DNA of 64,000 bases from Anaerolineae bacterium (GTDB lineage Bacteria; Chloroflexota; Anaerolineae; Aggregatilineales; Phototrophicaceae). Location: contig JAJDZQ010000103.1 of NCBI GenBank assembly GCA_022824565.1, positions 1 through 64,000 on the forward strand, given 5' to 3'. Position numbers and translations under genes: made by a program. This document shows positions 31,840 through 40,610 of this stretch, in pieces (positions within the stretch are counted from its first letter, which is position 1; each line of letters begins with the position of its first letter). The notes under the pieces were generated by a model, which saw nothing but the letters and a program-made list of their open reading frames with translations, was not told where the DNA came from and made no database searches.

Positions 31840-31868
31840 TTGACATTGCGCGCGGGCGACACTACACT
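31840..31868 (+). promoter_or_regulatory. Promoter of the arg-car operon
   Basis: A perfect -35 TTGACA (31840-31845) and -10 TACACT (31863-31868) are spaced 17 bp, predicting a start near 31875 and a leader of about 195 nt before argC. A 7-bp hairpin (CGCATCC 31874-31880 with GGATGCG 31899-31905) would form at the extreme 5' end of the RNA and abuts the ribosome-binding site of the leader peptide. Confidence 0.82.
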
Positions 31869-31920
31869 GCTGGCGCATCCACATTTGAAATCTACTTTGG
31901 ATGCGGAAGGATATGTTGGC

Positions 31921-31986
31921 ATGACCAGGCGCAGGCGCAGGTTCTATACAAGAATGGAGATCGGCGCAGACCTGCCTGGTTGCTGA
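31921..31986 (+). CDS. Arginine-rich leader peptide of the arg operon attenuator
   Basis: This short ORF encodes 21 residues beginning MTRRRRRFYTR and ends at TGA 31984-31986. Codons 3-7 are five consecutive arginine codons, AGG CGC AGG CGC AGG, and codon 11 is AGA. GGAAGGA (31905-31911) stands 9 nt before the ATG. It sits between a consensus-like promoter and an intrinsic terminator directly ahead of argC, the layout of leader peptides in amino-acid attenuators. AGG and AGA appear scarce in neighbouring genes, which favour CGC, so stalling would be sensitive to charging of less common tRNA-Arg species. The peptide itself need have no function. Translation is predicted, not shown. Confidence 0.85.
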   Translation: MTRRRRRFYTRMEIGADLPGC

Positions 31987-32046
31987 AGCGATGTCGGACT
32001 TGAAACAGTGCCCAGCCGCGCCCTGATCTCGAAATGGTCGGGGCGT
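31924..32046 (+). promoter_or_regulatory. Predicted arginine-responsive transcription attenuator (alternative RNA folds)
   Basis: Three pairings compete. 1:2 pairs the arginine codons with the end of the leader ORF: ACCAGG (31924-31929) with CCTGGT (31975-31980), CAG (31932-31934) with CTG (31972-31974), and GCGC (31935-31938) with GCGC (31964-31967). 2:3, the antiterminator, pairs GAGATC-GGCGC (31957-31967) with GCGCC-ct-GATCTC (32018-32030), 11 bp with a 2-nt bulge. 3:4 is the terminator. A ribosome stalled on the arginine codons blocks strand 1, freeing strand 2 to pair with 3, so transcription continues. Without stalling, 1:2 leaves 3 free to form the terminator. The logic is read from the sequence; function is inferred. 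Confidence 0.82.
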
Positions 32047-32050
32047 TTTG
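32018..32050 (+). terminator. Intrinsic terminator of the arg leader (attenuator stem)
   Basis: A stem of about 10 bp, CGCCCTGATC (32019-32028) with GGTCGGGGCG (32036-32045), including two G-U pairs, has a 7-nt loop and is followed by TTTTGATTTAT. It lies 20 bp upstream of the argC start and shares its 5' arm with the antiterminator. Confidence 0.85.
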
Positions 32051-32069
32051 ATTTATGGAGTGCGCAGTG

Positions 32070-33071
32070 ATGAAACCAATCTATGCGGGAGTTTATGGCG
32101 GTTCGGGTTATGCGGGCTTGGACCTGGTCGAGATTCTGTCTGGGCATCCCGTCATTGAGCTGGTCTTCGCCACTTCCAACAGCTACCAGGGCGAGCCGGT
32201 GCCAGGCGCAGAGCTGTGTTTTGTCCGGCCCGATGAAGCGCCGCTGACGGCTGTCGATGTCATCTTCCTGGCGCTGCCACACAAGGCATCGGCCAGCATG
32301 GCCAAACGCGGCATCGAGGCGGGTGTCAAAGTTGTCGATTTGTCTGCCGACCTGCGCCTGTCCACGCCCGAAGCCTACGCAGCCCACTACCACACGCCGC
32401 ATCCGCATCCCGAGCTGCTGCCAGCGCCGTATGGATTGCCCGAGATCAACCGCGCCAATTTGGCTGGCGTCGATGTGGTCGCCACGCCCGGCTGTTACCC
32501 GACGACAACCTTGCTGGGGCTCTATCCTCTCCTGCGGCACAACGCGCTTTCTGCCGATGCGCCTGTCATCGTAGACGCAAAATCGGGCGTGACCGGCGCA
32601 GGCCGCAAACCAGCGCTGGCCACGCACTTCGCCGAAGTCTACAGCAACCTCGTCCCCTACAAGACCGGGCGCAGCCATCGACACATCGGCGAGCTTGAGC
32701 AAGAGGCGCACAAGCTGATGCCGCGCATGGGTCCCATTATTTTCTGCCCGCATCTGCTGCCCGTCGATCGCGGTTTGATGGCCAGCATCTATGTCACGCT
32801 GGCTGACTCGTTCAACAGCAACCAGGCGCAGGCTCTATTTGCCGAAGCCTATGCAAACGAGCCGCTCGTAGACTTGCTGCCGCCGGGCGAACAGGCGACT
32901 CTCAAACACGCCGTCAAGACCAACCGCTGCGCCATCAGCATCACGCCCGTGCTGGAAAAATATCTGCATATCACCAGCGTCACGGACAACCTGCGCAAGG
33001 GCGCGGCCAGCCAGGCGGTGCAGAATATGAACCTGATGTTTGGCATCGACGAGACCACGGGGTTGCTGTAG
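32070..33071 (+). CDS. argC: N-acetyl-gamma-glutamyl-phosphate reductase
   Basis: ArgC reduces N-acetylglutamyl phosphate to the semialdehyde with NADPH, the third step of arginine synthesis. The N-terminal GGSGYAGLDLV is the nucleotide-binding loop, and the active-site cysteine C142 sits in TPGCYPT. SHRHIGELEQE and CPHLLPVDRGL are further family blocks. The start is taken as ATG 32070, with GGAG 9 nt upstream, giving 333 residues; ATG 32055 and GTG 32067 are in frame. It is the first structural gene after the attenuator and overlaps argB by one base (TAGTG). Confidence 0.95.
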   Translation: MKPIYAGVYGGSGYAGLDLVEILSGHPVIELVFATSNSYQGEPVPGAELCFVRPDEAPLTAVDVIFLALPHKASASMAKRGIEAGVKVVDLSADLRLSTPEAYAAHYHTPHPHPELLPAPYGLPEINRANLAGVDVVATPGCYPTTTLLGLYPLLRHNALSADAPVIVDAKSGVTGAGRKPALATHFAEVYSNLVPYKTGRSHRHIGELEQEAHKLMPRMGPIIFCPHLLPVDRGLMASIYVTLADSFNSNQAQALFAEAYANEPLVDLLPPGEQATLKHAVKTNRCAISITPVLEKYLHITSVTDNLRKGAASQAVQNMNLMFGIDETTGLL

Positions 33072-33850
33072 TGCGCCAGCCTGTCAATGTCATCAAAATC
33101 TCGGGCCATTACCTGGATGACGAGGGGCTGTTGGGGCAATTCGCCCGCAGTGTGGCGCGCGCGGACGAGCGAGTGGTCATCGTGCACGGTGGCGGCACCG
33201 AGATTACGCAGCTGCAGCAAAAGCTGGGGATTGCCCCGCGCTATGTCGATGGTCTGCGCGTAACCGATGCCGAGTCGCTGGCGCTGGTCGAGATGGCGCT
33301 GTGCGGCACGGTCAACAAGCGACTGGTGCGGCATCTGTTGACGGCTGGCGTGGATGCGCAAGGCTTGTCGGGTGTGGATCGTGGCTTGGTGCGCGCGCGG
33401 CAGATGCAACACGACCAGGTCGATATGGGCTTTACGGGCACAGTCGTTGCTGTGCGGGCACAAATCCTTTGCGACTTGTTTGCGCTGGACGTAACACCGG
33501 TGATTGCGCCGGTCAGCCTGGGCGAGTCCAGCAATTTCAACCTGAATGCCGACCCCGTGGCAGGCGCGATTGCGGCGGCGCTGGGCGCGGAAACGGTCGT
33601 GTATATTTCAAATGTCGCCGGCGTCCAGGCGCATGGCGATCTCATCAAAAAATTGACGCGGCGGGAAGCAGAAGGACTAATCGCCAGCGGCGTCATCTCG
33701 GGCGGGATGATTCCCAAAGTGCGGTCGGCTCTGGATGTGCTATCATCGGGCGTGCGGCGCGCGGTGATCACCGACCTGGCGGGTTGGGCGAGCGGCGGCG
33801 GCACCAGCTTTGTGACGGAAGAAAACGAACGAATGGTCAGCGAGGGATAA
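33071..33850 (+). CDS. argB: Acetylglutamate kinase
   Basis: An amino-acid kinase of 259 residues that phosphorylates N-acetylglutamate. VHGGGTEI (substrate loop), DGLRVTD, NLNADPVAGAIAAALGAE and GGMIPKV match the NAGK family. The N-terminal nucleotide motif reads IKISGHYLDD where most members have KxGG, a small departure that keeps the lysine. It lacks the N-terminal helix typical of hexameric, arginine-inhibited kinases, suggesting control may be at expression rather than by feedback; this is an inference. It starts at GTG 33071 (TAGTG with argC) and couples to argD by TAATG. Confidence 0.92.
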   Translation: MRQPVNVIKISGHYLDDEGLLGQFARSVARADERVVIVHGGGTEITQLQQKLGIAPRYVDGLRVTDAESLALVEMALCGTVNKRLVRHLLTAGVDAQGLSGVDRGLVRARQMQHDQVDMGFTGTVVAVRAQILCDLFALDVTPVIAPVSLGESSNFNLNADPVAGAIAAALGAETVVYISNVAGVQAHGDLIKKLTRREAEGLIASGVISGGMIPKVRSALDVLSSGVRRAVITDLAGWASGGGTSFVTEENERMVSEG

Positions 33851-35052
33851 TGTCAATCACAGCAGATGTCATTCAAAAAGACAAAGACTACAGCGTGCCG
33901 GTGGCGGCCCGTCCAGACTTCGTGCTGACGCGCGGCGAGGGCGTTACTGTTTTTGACGCCGCTGGCAAAGCCTACACCGACTGGGTGGCTGGCATCGCCG
34001 TCAATGCGCTGGGTTATGGCGATGCAGAATTGCAAAAAGCGGTGGCTGCGCAAATGGACACGGGCTTGATCCATGTCAGCGGCTTGTATCACACCCAGCC
34101 CATGGTCGAACTGGCGCAGGCGCTCTGCGACATGTCATTCGCCGACAAAGCCTACTTCTGCAATAGCGGGGCAGAAGCGGTGGAAGGCGCGCTGAAGTTC
34201 GCCCGCAAGCATGCCTATGTCAATGAACGCGCCAACAAGACCAAGGTCGTCAGCTTCAGCGATGCCTTTCATGGCCGCACGATGGGCGCGCTGGCCGTGA
34301 CGCCAAAAGCAAAATACCAGACGCCGTTCAAACCCATGGTGCCGGGCGCGGTCGTTGGCGAATTCAACAACATCCAAAGCGCGCGCGAGTTGATAGACGC
34401 CGACACAGTCGCGGTGATTGTCGAGCCGATCCAGGGCGAAGGCGGCATCAATGTGGCCAGCGCCGAGTTCATGCAGGCTTTGCGGACGCTATGCGACGAG
34501 CACGATGCCGCGCTGATCTTTGATGAAATTCAATGCGGTTTGGGCCGCAGCGGCGACATGTGGGCGCACAGCATCGCTGGCGTTTCGCCAGATATCATGG
34601 TGCTGGCGAAACCGCTGGCCGGTGGCTTGCCCATTGGCGCGATTCTGACGACGGACGCAATCGCGAGCGCCATGAGCCCGGGCGATCACGGCTCGACCTT
34701 TTCTGGTGGGGCAGTGGTGATGCAAGCTGCGCAGGTCGTAATCAAGCGCATCGCCAGCGAGGGCTTCCTGGAGCATGTGCGCGAGGTCGGCGAGTATCTG
34801 CTGGAACGGCTGGCAGAGCTAAACAGCCCGCATATCGTCGATGTGCGCGGACGCGGCCTGATGGCTGGCATCGAACTGGATATTGCGCCCGGCGGCATTG
34901 TGCAAGCCGGCTACGAGCAGGGTCTGCTGCTGGTCAGCTCGGGCACAAATGTCATTCGCTTCGTCCCGCCGCTGATCGTGCAAAAGGCGCATGTAGATGA
35001 GTTGGTCGACAAGCTGACGCAGATTCTGGAGGCGATTGATGACGGCGATTAG
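33850..35052 (+). CDS. argD: Acetylornithine aminotransferase
   Basis: A 400-residue class III PLP aminotransferase making N-acetylornithine from the semialdehyde. NSGAEAVEGALKFAR binds PLP phosphate, SFSDAFHGRTMGAL follows, EPIQGEGGIN and IFDEIQCGLGRSG are signature stretches, and K254 in LAKPLAGGLPIGA forms the Schiff base. The start is ATG 33850 (TAATG with argB); the open frame continues upstream inside argB. The gene ends 14 bp inside argJ. Related aminotransferases acting on ornithine or 4-aminobutyrate are excluded mainly by the operon context. Confidence 0.95.
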   Translation: MSITADVIQKDKDYSVPVAARPDFVLTRGEGVTVFDAAGKAYTDWVAGIAVNALGYGDAELQKAVAAQMDTGLIHVSGLYHTQPMVELAQALCDMSFADKAYFCNSGAEAVEGALKFARKHAYVNERANKTKVVSFSDAFHGRTMGALAVTPKAKYQTPFKPMVPGAVVGEFNNIQSARELIDADTVAVIVEPIQGEGGINVASAEFMQALRTLCDEHDAALIFDEIQCGLGRSGDMWAHSIAGVSPDIMVLAKPLAGGLPIGAILTTDAIASAMSPGDHGSTFSGGAVVMQAAQVVIKRIASEGFLEHVREVGEYLLERLAELNSPHIVDVRGRGLMAGIELDIAPGGIVQAGYEQGLLLVSSGTNVIRFVPPLIVQKAHVDELVDKLTQILEAIDDGD

Positions 35053-36262
35053 CCCTTCGATTGACAAGGTGGCCGGCTTCCAGGTCGCTGGCGTAGCTGC
35101 GGGGCTCAAGAAAGATGGCGCGCTGGACCTGGCATTGGTCGTCAGCGAGAGCGATTGTGTGGCGGCTGGCGTCTTCACGCGCAACAAGGTCAAAGCCGCT
35201 CCGGTGCTGCTGGATATGCAGCGGCTGGCAGAAAATCCTACCAGCATACGCGCGGTGGTGACAAACTCGGCTTGCGCAAATGCCTGCACGGGCGCCCTCG
35301 GCCTGGAAAATGCGCGAACGACAGCCGGTCTGGTGGCGGATGCGCTGCCTGTCTCGGCTGAACAAGTGCTGGTCATGTCGACCGGCGTCATCGGCGAGCA
35401 CCTGCCCATGGGGGCTATCGCGCGCGGCATAGCCCTAGCCAGCGCCAGATTGAGCGATGACTGGGCGGCGACAGCGGCAGCCATCATGACCACCGACACG
35501 CGCCCCAAACTGGCATCGCTGCAAGTCGAAGGCGCTGGCGGCAGCTACACAATCGCCGGCATCGCCAAGGGCGCAGGCATGATCGCGCCGGATATGGCCA
35601 CCATGCTCAGCGTGGTCGTCACCGATGCCGCGCTGGAACTGGGCGAGCTGCAAAATGCGCTGAGCACAGCCACGCAACAGAGTTTCAACCGCATTGTCGT
35701 CGATGGCGATACCAGCACCAACGATACCGTGCTGCTGCTCGCCAATGGCCAGAGCGGCGTGCCTGTCGAGGATGCCGACGACCTGGCGGCTTTTCAAGCG
35801 GCGCTGGATGCTTTGACGCGCTACCTGGCGCAAGAAATCGTCCGCGATGGCGAAGGCGTCACCAAGTTCGTCACGCTGGATATCGTCAATGCCGCCACTG
35901 TCGCCGCTGCCGAACAGATTGGCCAGACCATCGGCGCATCGCTGCTGACCAAATCGGCATTTTATGGCAGCGATGCCAACTGGGGGCGGATTGTGGCGGC
36001 GGCTGGTCGCGCTGGTTGCGACTTTGACCCCGATCGCAGTTCGCTGTGGGTGGCGGCTGGCGAGTCTCCGCCAGAGCCGGGCTTGCAGATTTTCGCTGGT
36101 GGCATGCCGGCCGACTATCAAGAGGCGGAAGCGGCAGCCATCATGTCCGCGCCAGCCATGACCTTCAAGCTGGATTGTGGGCTGGGGCGGGGCAGCGCCA
36201 CGATCTGGACCTGCGATATCAGCCACGAATACATCTCCATCAACGGCGACTATCGCTCCTGA
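35039..36262 (+). CDS. argJ: Bifunctional glutamate N-acetyltransferase/ornithine acetyltransferase
   Basis: ArgJ moves the acetyl group from acetylornithine back to glutamate, allowing the cyclic arginine pathway. The autocleavage site is in IAPDMATMLS, with T188 as the new N-terminal nucleophile of the beta subunit. TNSACANACTG forms the oxyanion-hole region, and GDTSTNDT and YGSDANWGRI are family blocks. Length is 407 residues. The start ATG 35039 follows GGAGG at 6 nt inside the end of argD. No argA is present here, consistent with the ArgJ route. Confidence 0.95.
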   Translation: MTAISPSIDKVAGFQVAGVAAGLKKDGALDLALVVSESDCVAAGVFTRNKVKAAPVLLDMQRLAENPTSIRAVVTNSACANACTGALGLENARTTAGLVADALPVSAEQVLVMSTGVIGEHLPMGAIARGIALASARLSDDWAATAAAIMTTDTRPKLASLQVEGAGGSYTIAGIAKGAGMIAPDMATMLSVVVTDAALELGELQNALSTATQQSFNRIVVDGDTSTNDTVLLLANGQSGVPVEDADDLAAFQAALDALTRYLAQEIVRDGEGVTKFVTLDIVNAATVAAAEQIGQTIGASLLTKSAFYGSDANWGRIVAAAGRAGCDFDPDRSSLWVAAGESPPEPGLQIFAGGMPADYQEAEAAAIMSAPAMTFKLDCGLGRGSATIWTCDISHEYISINGDYRS

Positions 36263-36274
36263 CGGAGGGCAGAC

Positions 36275-37396
36275 ATGCAAGCGGCGCTTGTGCTAGAAGA
36301 TGGGCGGGTCTTCCCCGGCGAGGGTTTTGGCGCGCAAGGCTGTGCAACCGGCGAGATCGTTTTCAATACATCCATGACCGGTTACCAGGAAATCCTCACC
36401 GATCCATCGTATTACGGCCAGATTGTCGCGATGACTGTGCCGCATGTCGGCAACACCGGCATCAACCTGGAAGATCCAGAATCGCGCAGGGTTTGGGTTT
36501 CGGGCTTCATCGTGCGCTCGTTGAGCCCGCTGGTGAGCAATTGGCGGAATCGCGGCGATCTGGCGACTTACCTCGGCGAACGCGGCATCATCGGCATGAC
36601 TGGCGTCGCCACCCGGGCTCTGGTGCGGCATATCCGCGAATGTGGCGTGATGCGCGCTGTCGTTGCGCATGGCTCGCTGGCGGATGACAAAGTAGCGCTG
36701 GCCGAAATCGCGCGCAATTCGCAAGATATGTCCGGCGCGAATCTGGTGGATGCGGTGACGGCGGAGGCAGCCTACAACTGGACGCAGGGCAGCGACGCGC
36801 AATGGTATGGCGTGCACGAAGACAACAGCGGCGGTCCCCTGATTGTCGCTTATGATTTTGGCATCAAGCGCAATATCCTGCGCATGCTGGCCGATCGTGG
36901 CTTGCGGGTGGCTGTCGTGCCAGCCCGCACCTGCCCGGCGGATATCTTGAAAATGCAGCCGGCTGGCGTCTTCCTCAGCAACGGTCCGGGCGACCCTGCT
37001 GCTGTCGGATACGCCATCGCCAATGTGCGCGCGCTTTTGGGGGCGCTGCCGATATTTGGCATCTGTCTGGGGCATCAAATCTTGGCGCTGGCGCTGGGTG
37101 GCAAGACAGAAAAGATGCGCTTCGGGCACCGTGGCGGCAACCAGCCCATAAAAAATCTGGACAGTGGCGCAGTCGAAATTGCCGCGCACAATCATGGCTT
37201 TGCGGTTTCGGCAGAGGGCGAACTTGGCGGCGGCGAGATCACCCACCTTAACCTGAACGACAACACAGTCGCTGGCTTGCGGCATCGTGGTCTGCGCGCT
37301 TTCAGTGTGCAGTACCACCCAGAGGCTTCGCCCGGTCCACACGATTCTTTTTATCTATTTGACGAATTTGTCGACGAAGTCGCTGCAAACGTCTAA
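36275..37396 (+). CDS. carA: Carbamoyl-phosphate synthase small (glutaminase) subunit
   Basis: CarA hydrolyses glutamine and channels ammonia to CarB. The 373-residue protein has the N-terminal CPSase domain ([26 protein letters not shown]) and a class I amidotransferase domain with the nucleophile C264 in GICLGHQ and the histidine in [18 protein letters not shown] lies 6 nt before the ATG. Its place after argJ makes carbamoyl phosphate supply part of the arginine unit, although the same product feeds pyrimidines, so arginine-responsive control would affect both. Confidence 0.96.
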
Positions 37397-37403
37397 AACG
37401 CCG

Positions 37404-40400
37404 ATGCCCAAACGAACCGACATACACAGCATCATGATCATCGGCTCGGGACCCATCGTCATCGGGCAAGCCTGCGAATTCGACTACAGTGGCGCGCAAG
37501 CCTGCAAAGCGCTGAAATCGCAGGGCTATCGTGTTGTGCTGGTGAACTCCAACCCGGCTACGATCATGACCGACCCCCAACTTGCCGACGCCACCTATAT
37601 CGAGCCGCTGACCGCCCAGCTGTGCGAGATGATCATCGCGCAAGAACGCCCAGACGCGCTGCTGCCCACAGTCGGCGGACAGACCGCTCTCAACCTGGCT
37701 GTGCAGCTACAGCAGAAGCGAGTCTTGGACCGCTATGGCGTCGAGTTGATCGGCGCGAACTTGACCAGCATCCAGTTGGCAGAAGATCGGCAACTTTTCA
37801 ACGACACCATGCGCGAGATTGGCCTGCGCGTGCCCGAAAGCCGCGTCGTGAACAGCGTCGATGGCGCGCTGGACTTCGCAGACGAGATCGGCTATCCGAT
37901 TTTGATCCGACCGTCCTACACCATGGGCGGGGCGGGTGGCGGCGTCGCGTATGATGCCGAAGAACTGCGGGGAGTCGCAGCCAATGGCATCCATCAAAGC
38001 CCGGTCGGCGAAGTGCTGGTCGACCGCAGCCTGCTGGGCTGGAAAGAATATGAGCTGGAATTGATGCGAGACGCCAAAGGCAATTTCGTGGTGGTCTGCT
38101 CCATAGAGAATCTTGATCCCATGGGCGTGCACACCGGCGACAGCATCACCATTGCGCCCGCGCAGACCCTGACCGACAAAGAAATCCAGCGCCTGCGCAA
38201 TATGTCGCGGCAGATTTTCGACCGCCTCGGCATCACCACGGGCGGCGCGAATGTGCAATTTGCCATTGACCCGGTTGCGGGCGATGCAGTCGTCATTGAA
38301 ATGAATCCGCGCGTTTCACGGTCTTCTGCGCTGGCCAGCAAAGCTACAGGCTTCCCTATCGCCAAGATTGCCGCGCTGCTGGCGGTAGGCTTTACATTGG
38401 ACGAGATCCCCAACGACATCACGCAGCAGACACCAGCCAGCTTCGAGCCATCTTTGGACTACATCGTGGTGAAAATCCCCCGCTGGGACTTTCGCAAGTT
38501 CGCAGGTGCCGACCCCGTGCTGGGTCCGCAGATGAAAGCGGTTGGCGAGGTGATGGCTATCGGACGCACCTTCCCCGAGGCGCTGCAAAAAGCTGTGCGC
38601 GCGCTGGATATTGGCATGGACGGCTTCGTCAGCGAACCCGACGCGCAGACAAGGCCAGAGGCATTACGCGTGCCCACTGCCCAACGGCTCTTCCAGGTGG
38701 CGGCGGCGCTGGCGGATGGCTTCGGCATTGAGGACATCGTGGCCGAAACGCAGTTTGACCCCTGGTTCGTGCAGCAAATGGGCGAATTGATGCGCGTGTA
38801 TGGCACGATTGCGGGCGAAGGGCGGCGGCTGAGCGACATCTGCGCGGACGAGATGCGCCATCTAAAACAAGTTGGCTTCAGCGATGCGACCCTGGCGCGG
38901 CTGTTGCGCACAGGCGAGGCAGCGGTCAGGCAGCGGCGAAAAGAACTGGGAGTTTCGGCAAACTTCTATCGAGTCGATACCTGCGCGGCAGAATTCCCGG
39001 CGCACACGCCCTACCTGTATTCCACATATGAGATGGGAGACGAATCTGCGCCGACCGACGCGCGCAAAGTGATGATCCTGGGTGGCGGACCCAACCGTAT
39101 CGGCCAGGGCATCGAGTTTGATTATTGCTGCGTGCACGCCTGCTTCGCGCTCAAGGAATTGGGATACGAGACCATCATGGTCAACTGCAATCCCGAAACA
39201 GTCAGCACCGATTACGATACAGCCGACCGGCTTTACTTCGAGCCGTTGACCGCCGAAGATGTCATGAATATCGTCGACCGCGAGCAGCCCGCGGGCCTGC
39301 TGGTGCAATTTGGTGGGCAAACGCCATTGAATATCGCCGGCGAGCTGGAGCGGCTGGGCGCGCCCATCTGGGGCACATCGGTGGATACGATTGACCTGGC
39401 AGAAGATCGCCAACGGTGTCAGGCGCTCATGCAACAGCTCAATATCGCGCAGCCGGCCGGCGCCATCATCACGACACGCGCAGAAGCCACCGCAGCCGCC
39501 GCAACGATCGGTTATCCCGTGCTGGTGCGTCCCAGTTATGTGCTGGGCGGGCAGGGCATGGCGATCGTGTTTGACGAAGCGCAGTTGTTGGCCTGGCTGG
39601 ATGAACATGTCCAATGGCATGGGCATCGCGTTTTGATCGACCAATTTTTGGACGATGCCTACGAAGTTGATGTCGATGCCCTTGGCGACGGCGAGCAAGT
39701 GACCATCGGCGGCATCATGCAGCATATTGAGCAGGCCGGCGTGCACAGCGGCGATTCGGCTTGTGTGCTGCCGCCCTACAAAATCAGCTATTTTCACCTG
39801 GATATCATCCGCGAACACACGCGGCGCATTGGTTTGGCGCTGGGGGTGCGCGGCTTGTTCAATATCCAATTCGCCGTCAAGGACGACCAGGTTTATGTGC
39901 TAGAAGTCAACCCGCGCGCCAGCCGCACAGTGCCCTTCATCAGCAAAGCGACCGGTCAGCCACTGGCTCGCTATGCGGCGCAAATCGCTTGTGGGCAGAC
40001 CCTCTCGGCGCTGGGATTCACAGAAGAACCGCCGGTATCCGGCTTCTTCGTCAAAGAAGCTGTCTTCCCTTTTCAGAAGTTCCCGGGCGTCGATACGCGC
40101 TTGGGACCAGAAATGCGCTCCACTGGCGAAGTGATGGGACATGCTGCGACATTCAGCCACGCCTTTGTCAAATCGCAGTCGGCGGCGGGTCTGCCTTTGC
40201 CAACGGCGGGTAGTGTGTTCATCAGCGTCAACGACTTTGACAAAGCCGCTGTCGCCAGGCTGGCGCGGGATCTGGCGCGCTTGGGCTTTGCCCTGGTCGC
40301 CACAGACGGCACCGCCAGTTGGCTTGGGCAGATCGGATTGCAGGTTGCGCGCATAAACAAGCTTTCGCAGGGCTCGCCCCATGTGCTCGATGCGATGCGC

Positions 40401-40610
40401 GCAGGCGAAATTGACCTCATCATCAACACGCCGCGGGGTGGGACAGCCCACGAAGACGGCGCGACCATTCGCAGCCAGGCTTATGCGCTGGGCATCCCCA
40501 TCGTCACCACCATGAGCGCAGCGGCGGCCACTGCGCAAGGCATCAAACATCTGCGCGAGAAGCCGCTCAGCGTGCGCAGCCTGCAAGCTCATTACGCGCT
40601 GGTCAACTAG
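37404..40610 (+). CDS. carB: Carbamoyl-phosphate synthase large subunit
   Basis: A full-length 1068-residue CarB with duplicated ATP-grasp halves: [19 protein letters not shown] in the first and [17 protein letters not shown] in the second, each followed by RPSY motifs. A C-terminal MGS-like allosteric domain (about 940-1068) follows. It makes carbamoyl phosphate from bicarbonate, ammonia and two ATP. The ATG at 37404 is 7 nt after the carA stop and only a weak ribosome-binding site is seen, consistent with coupling. The longer open frame upstream lies inside carA and is rejected. Confidence 0.96.

Follow-up and report, generated by a model that had tools for sequence, protein, structure and literature searches.

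A probable arginine-sensing ribosome-mediated transcription attenuator ahead of argC in Anaerolineae and Herpetosiphon

The window analysed here, a stretch of 64,000 nucleotides (G000:C137) from a 3.46-Mb draft genome of a Chloroflexota bacterium (class Anaerolineae as GTDB uses the name), carries argC, argB, argD, argJ, carA and carB on one strand, with neighbouring genes either overlapping or separated by gaps of no more than 12 nt (Table 1). Gene order and these short gaps suggest that the six genes belong to one operon. Because argC to carB are co-oriented and tightly spaced, a single leader in front of argC would govern most of the arginine pathway together with carbamoyl-phosphate synthesis. 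The start codon listed for argC is the probable one, as indicated by relatives whose proteins begin with MK.I.AG. A second argC-like gene (G000:C38:13-1002, 37% identity), which has counterparts in nearly all relatives, was also found in the genome and possibly belongs to a LysW-type lysine/arginine pathway.

Table 1. Features of the argC leader and of the downstream genes in the window.
Feature	Positions	Strand	Basis
Putative promoter of the leader transcript, sigma-70-type, TTGACA-17-TACACT	31840-31868	+	Sequence and genus conservation
Shine-Dalgarno GGAAGGA of the leader ORF, 9 nt 5' of its ATG	31905-31911	+	Sequence
Leader ORF, 21 codons, MTRRRRRFYTRMEIGADLPGC followed by a stop	31921-31986	+	Sequence; Arg-run ORF at 49 of 50 argC loci of the order
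Five tandem Arg codons, AGG CGC AGG CGC AGG (putative regulatory codons)	31927-31941	+	Sequence
Antiterminator 5' strand (segment 2), GAGATCGGCGC	31957-31967	+	Duplex with 32018-32030
Antiterminator 3' strand (segment 3), GCGCCCTGATCTC, common to the terminator 5' arm	32018-32030	+	Pairing
Predicted intrinsic terminator, hairpin 32019-32045 and U-rich tail 32046-32054	32019-32054	+	Folding
argC with Shine-Dalgarno GGAG (32057-32060); probable start ATG 32070	32057-33071	+	TIGR01850, 319 bits
argB, overlapping the argC stop	33071-33850	+	TIGR00761
argD	33850-35052	+	TIGR00707
argJ	35036-36262	+	NF003802/TIGR00120
carA	36275-37396	+	TIGR01368
carB, presumed last arg/car gene of the operon	37404-40610	+	TIGR01369

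The first-pass annotation had read the region upstream of argC as an arginine-sensing attenuator, and the promoter, Shine-Dalgarno sequence, ORF, antiterminator and terminator that it had placed there were all confirmed when checked letter by letter. The -35 (TTGACA, 31840-31845) and -10 (TACACT, 31863-31868) hexamers are separated by a spacer of 17 nt, and a TTGAC-N17/18-TA...T promoter occupies the corresponding place in 31 of the 32 loci of the genus. A sixth Arg codon of the leader ORF is found at 31951-31953. The duplex between 31957-31967 and 32018-32030 has a calculated energy of -19.2 kcal/mol with a 2-nt bulge, and the terminator stem comprises 10 bp (-17.3 kcal/mol) and is followed by TTTTGATTT. 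The terminator hairpin ends only 11 nt from the argC GGAG, where effects on initiation are possible, and it could be argued that switching between the two structures makes the argC ribosome-binding site accessible or inaccessible, with no transcription termination being involved. Such translational attenuation appears very improbable, given that the hairpins are GC-rich and directly followed by a U-run in all families, and that several families have 40-130 nt between the terminator and argC, a distance over which the argC start could not be hidden.

If the leader were regulatory, arginine-run ORFs followed by terminators should be found upstream of argC in relatives, and this was the case. We examined the argC upstream regions of 50 loci from the same order, in which seven families carry the leader. 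A short ORF with an Arg cluster, followed by a hairpin and a U-run before argC, was present in 49 of them; the sole exception was locus L035, from the same family, in which the leader was not found. A fixed rule, demanding an ATG-initiated ORF of 8-50 codons with no fewer than 4 Arg within 6 codons and with its stop located 50-260 nt upstream of argC, retrieved 35 of these 50 loci (40 if any start codon was admitted), while among the controls it was satisfied by 3 of 73 regions upstream of argC in other phyla and by 1.85% of first-order shuffles. The control matches of the type MTRDAREVERKKVGF...ARRRKQFSKR from other phyla were discarded as leaders, since they look like the C-terminal end of ribosomal protein S9 extending into the argC upstream region. 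The number of Arg per 8 codons reached 4.2 in the leader frame, whereas the two remaining frames had 0.69 and 0.47. Among relatives, the Arg codons interchange synonymously (AGG/CGC/CGT) and the remaining peptide differs between families, which is how selection acting on the Arg codons, and not on the peptide, should look. In many relatives the leader ORF begins with GTG or shows no obvious Shine-Dalgarno sequence, and their start codons are thus tentative. In families f3, f4, f7, f8, f42 and f73, proline or similar residues frequently interrupt the Arg clusters (PRRxRR, RRPRRRP, RLRRPRT), which may be read either as a source of extra pausing or as a mere reflection of RNA pairing.

These comparisons bear on another explanation of the locus, a plain terminator of an upstream transcript accompanied by an Arg-rich ORF arisen by chance from AGGCGC repeats. 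The genome is GC-rich, and AGG/CGC repeats do yield arginine in one frame. Nevertheless, the frame-specific enrichment, the synonymous changes, the rarity of such ORFs in shuffled sequences and in other phyla, a conserved promoter located between any upstream gene and the leader, and the conserved pairing with the terminator arm described below leave this explanation with practically no probability, and the comparison across relatives rules out a chance origin of the Arg-rich ORF.

The attenuator reading further predicts that two mutually exclusive structures are maintained. In an alignment of 32 sequences from the genus, the antiterminator helix contained 5 pairs changed on both sides, a value that none of 500 shuffles reached, and its true register gave more paired cells than every slid version. 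The terminator was found at the same position in all 32 genus loci, with 88% of its cells paired. Between families the sequences differ almost totally, yet within each leader the segment is complementary to the terminator arm of that same leader: GAGAUCGGCGC/GCGCCCUGAUCUC in the window, GAGGUUCG/CGAACCUC in family f8, GGGGUUCG/CGAGCCCC in L042 of that same family, GUUCAGGUCUGG/CCGGACCUGAAC in L034, UACGGGUUCGG/CCGGACCCGUA in L043 and pairs of the AUAGGUCUGGA/UUCAGACUUGA type in family f7. Since per-locus shuffle tests are weak for short GC-rich arms, we resorted to swapping arms between families. The own duplexes of 20 leaders added up to -439.0 kcal/mol, against -304.0 ± 14.3 kcal/mol for the swapped ones, and 0 of 20,000 permutations were as low, for a set whose class-level representatives had partly been picked after their pairing was seen. 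For this reason the test was repeated with unselected, first-listed members, one for each of seven families, and just 2 of the 5,040 permutations attained so low a total, one of these being the true arrangement. The covariation to be expected of the proposed alternative pairing is thus seen as pairing retained while the sequence changes, both within the genus and between families, and argues for an antiterminator mutually exclusive with the terminator.

The stalling geometry described for the window, in which a ribosome held on the Arg codons stops short of the antiterminator strand, turned out to hold generally. The distance from the first base of the last Arg codon to that strand is 16-18 nt here and has a median of 17 nt (quartiles 13-19) over 49 loci. 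As the leading edge of a stalled ribosome reaches about 12-15 nt, a stall at any Arg codon would leave the antiterminator strand free. In several families this strand overlaps or adjoins the leader stop codon, so a ribosome located there would mask it; in the family of the window, some 14-16 nt separate its end from the stop codon, and masking would be partial. Folding predictions agree with an ordered process. The RNA from 31954 to 32034, the part that a ribosome halted on the last Arg codon would leave exposed while the terminator is still incomplete, folds as the antiterminator. RNA extending through 32046 prefers the terminator, which is still the minimum-energy fold of the full-length RNA with a ribosome on the last Arg codon, and switching must therefore be kinetic, as in known attenuators. 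The first-pass annotation had also proposed a competing 1:2 fold, pairing the Arg codons with the end of the ORF. This protector fold does form in the window (z = -1.8), but it found no support as a general feature, with a mean z of -0.46 over 49 leaders and values below -1 in just 15 of them.

Sequence comparison provides the elements, their conservation, their spacing and the conserved alternative pairing, and from these we infer a start site, translation of the leader, stalling and a change in readthrough, as follows. The transcript would begin near 31875, and the leader ORF would be translated while the RNA is being made. With ample arginine, the ribosome would pass the Arg codons, reach the stop codon and cover or disturb 31957-31967, whereupon 32019-32045 would fold as a terminator and RNA polymerase would stop before argC. 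Under a shortage of charged tRNA-Arg, the ribosome would halt with one of the Arg codons at 31927-31941 in its A site and, its leading edge lying about 12-15 nt ahead, it would stop before 31957; the free 31957-31967 segment could then capture 32018-32030 as it emerges, no terminator would form and the operon would be transcribed. The 49 of 50 leaders, the pairing kept across families, the stall geometry and the absence of ArgR from the genus (see below) all support the attenuator interpretation put forward initially, and we consider it very probable that the leader places argC-argB-argD-argJ-carA-carB under ribosome-mediated transcription attenuation in response to charged tRNA-Arg.

An arrest peptide offers a different account of the same stall. 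The nascent Arg-rich peptide itself, perhaps together with free arginine, would hold the ribosome, in the manner of the fungal arginine attenuator peptide or TnaC, with no need for a shortage of charged tRNA. Arginines are positively charged, and many members of the class mix Arg runs with Pro (PRRxRR, RRPRRRP, RFPRIRRP), as might suit a peptide of this sort. However, it is only the number of arginines that is conserved, as RRRRRF, RRRPFTR, RRERRSRP, RRQSRRTP and RLRRPRT all occur, whereas the arrest peptides that we know of have fixed key residues. Moreover, the C-terminal part of the leader peptide tracks the RNA pairing instead of peptide identity, and the geometry suits a stall on any Arg codon. 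We therefore judge an arrest peptide very improbable and favour the sensing of charged tRNA-Arg through the codons themselves.

Arginine genes of bacteria may also be controlled by ArgR, whose distribution was analysed with the profile PF01316. No match was obtained in G000 or in 33 other genomes of the genus, while 9 of the 14 control genomes gave a match in the same search. The rest of the order yielded no more than weak and partial matches, in family f8 and in one f2 genome. In the f8 genomes G043, G049, G054 and G059, which also carry the leader, a 112-aa ORF aligns with positions 24-68 alone of the ArgR DNA-binding profile, just above the cut-off. The search was extended to 36 further Chloroflexota genomes. 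ArgR was matched in none of the 24 that come from leader-bearing lineages outside the order, and a clear ArgR was present in three genomes of family f69 (G198, G205 and G235), within about 5 kb of argC; the two usable f69 argC upstream regions showed no Arg-codon leader. The leader and ArgR are distributed reciprocally, with small numbers on the ArgR side.

To delimit the spread of the leader beyond the order, we applied an automatic test that demanded an Arg-run ORF, a terminator and a significant antiterminator together. It was passed by 23 of 63 loci of the class and by all 6 loci of Herpetosiphonaceae, which belong to a different class of the phylum, and by none of 15 loci from other Chloroflexota families or of 73 argC loci from other phyla. 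By this test no leader was detected in families f19, f22, f32, f37, f39 and f53 of the class, nor in families f58 and f63 of other classes. Many argC leaders in other families of the class show the same parts. The Herpetosiphonaceae argC leaders (L208, L204-L206, L209 and L211) are built in the same way, and their terminator is very stable. One of the Herpetosiphonaceae argC leaders lies in the cultured type strain Herpetosiphon aurantiacus DSM 785 (recognised by its plasmid record CP000876.1), where it encodes the peptide MKKQMLTNLFSPALRLRRPRTNEVRWACAVCAA, and this makes the claim directly testable.

The upstream regions of argF, argG, trpE and ilvB were examined through family searches. In three relatives, argG is preceded by an independent Arg-codon leader with its own antiterminator and terminator, the peptides being MKTLSNINRRLRRRTRK (L242, genome G033), one ending in SRLRRRIRRLHIGLAENFGVC (L241, G039) and MKWMLNIVNSRFGRGRRTGKDQSG (L237, G036), each followed by a stop. 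A comparable leader was not found for argF in 16 genomes, nor a convincing Trp-codon leader at 9 trpE loci, and ilvB yielded one leader candidate only. The latter (L281, family f18) is a 36-codon ORF rich in Ile/Val/Leu, MAFSSVVLSLIVIVLILRGLLRLGG..., that may be a branched-chain amino-acid leader. With trpE lacking a convincing leader and ilvB giving a single candidate, a general habit of attenuation in this lineage found no support.

The leader shares its plan with the trp, his, leu, ilv, thr and phe attenuators: a short ORF carrying a run of end-product codons, the first biosynthetic gene just downstream, and an antiterminator and an intrinsic terminator that share a strand. It differs from them in being arginine-specific, in its occurrence in Chloroflexota and in its absence from Rfam 15, which gave no match at the gathering threshold in the window or in seven relatives, the best sub-threshold match being meaningless. 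ArgR-controlled arg operons have the same target genes and physiological aim, but rely on a DNA-binding repressor. The fungal arginine attenuator peptide (arg-2/CPA1) is likewise encoded in an upstream ORF and confers an arginine response on an arginine-pathway gene, but it is eukaryotic, has a conserved peptide, arrests ribosomes at high arginine and involves no terminator. The specificities listed for leader attenuators are His, Leu, Thr, Trp, Ile/Val and Phe, in a survey that took in five Chloroflexi (PMC3766115), and such attenuators are described as known only in Proteobacteria, Actinobacteria and, newly, Firmicutes (PMC2965389). None is named for arginine in the portion consulted of an actinobacterial attenuator survey (PMC1262725).

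Two other kinds of arginine-sensing bacterial leader are described in the open-access literature. In Salmonella, pausing on tandem Arg codons of ORF34 in the speF leader senses arginine, and low arginine raises expression; this leader differs in that it controls ornithine decarboxylase and not arginine synthesis, has two Arg codons, and acts through RNase G susceptibility, Rho-dependent termination and ribosome-binding site structure, with no intrinsic terminator switch (PMC6386406). A leader of the speF/ORF34 type (ORF34/DUF2618) was considered for the present locus and rejected, as argC lies downstream, the HIRRT core is absent from the peptide and an intrinsic terminator is present. In Staphylococcus aureus, Arg codons in the short ORF of rbfL sense arginine limitation by ribosome pausing, detected in vitro by toeprinting at +13 from the Arg codon; rbfL differs in blocking the rbf ribosome-binding site at low arginine, in targeting a biofilm regulator and in having no terminator (PMC13009471). 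In this literature, which was the scope of our search, neither kind acts on arginine biosynthesis via an intrinsic terminator, and we found no arginine-specific attenuator of arginine biosynthesis, in agreement with the first-pass annotation, to which none of this kind was known. Its suggestion that the leader may be new for this lineage stands insofar as no earlier report was found, but the leader is found widely across the class as well as in Herpetosiphon, and in some relatives it also stands before argG. The mechanism is a known one; as far as could be checked, the amino-acid specificity, the phylum and the use without ArgR are new.

We lean towards the broader view that Arg-codon attenuation is the main control of arginine biosynthesis in most Anaerolineae (as defined by GTDB) and in Herpetosiphon, where it would replace ArgR and act on the argC operon and, in several lineages, on argG too, as an old regulon on the scale of the phylum. 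The leader also shows one regulatory logic preserved across families though nearly every base of the RNA changed, and this near-complete turnover may well explain its absence from covariance-model libraries. If the attenuator reading is true, arginine would join the few amino acids made under the control of leader-peptide transcription attenuation, such attenuators would extend to Chloroflexota, and a lineage devoid of ArgR would gain a regulator.
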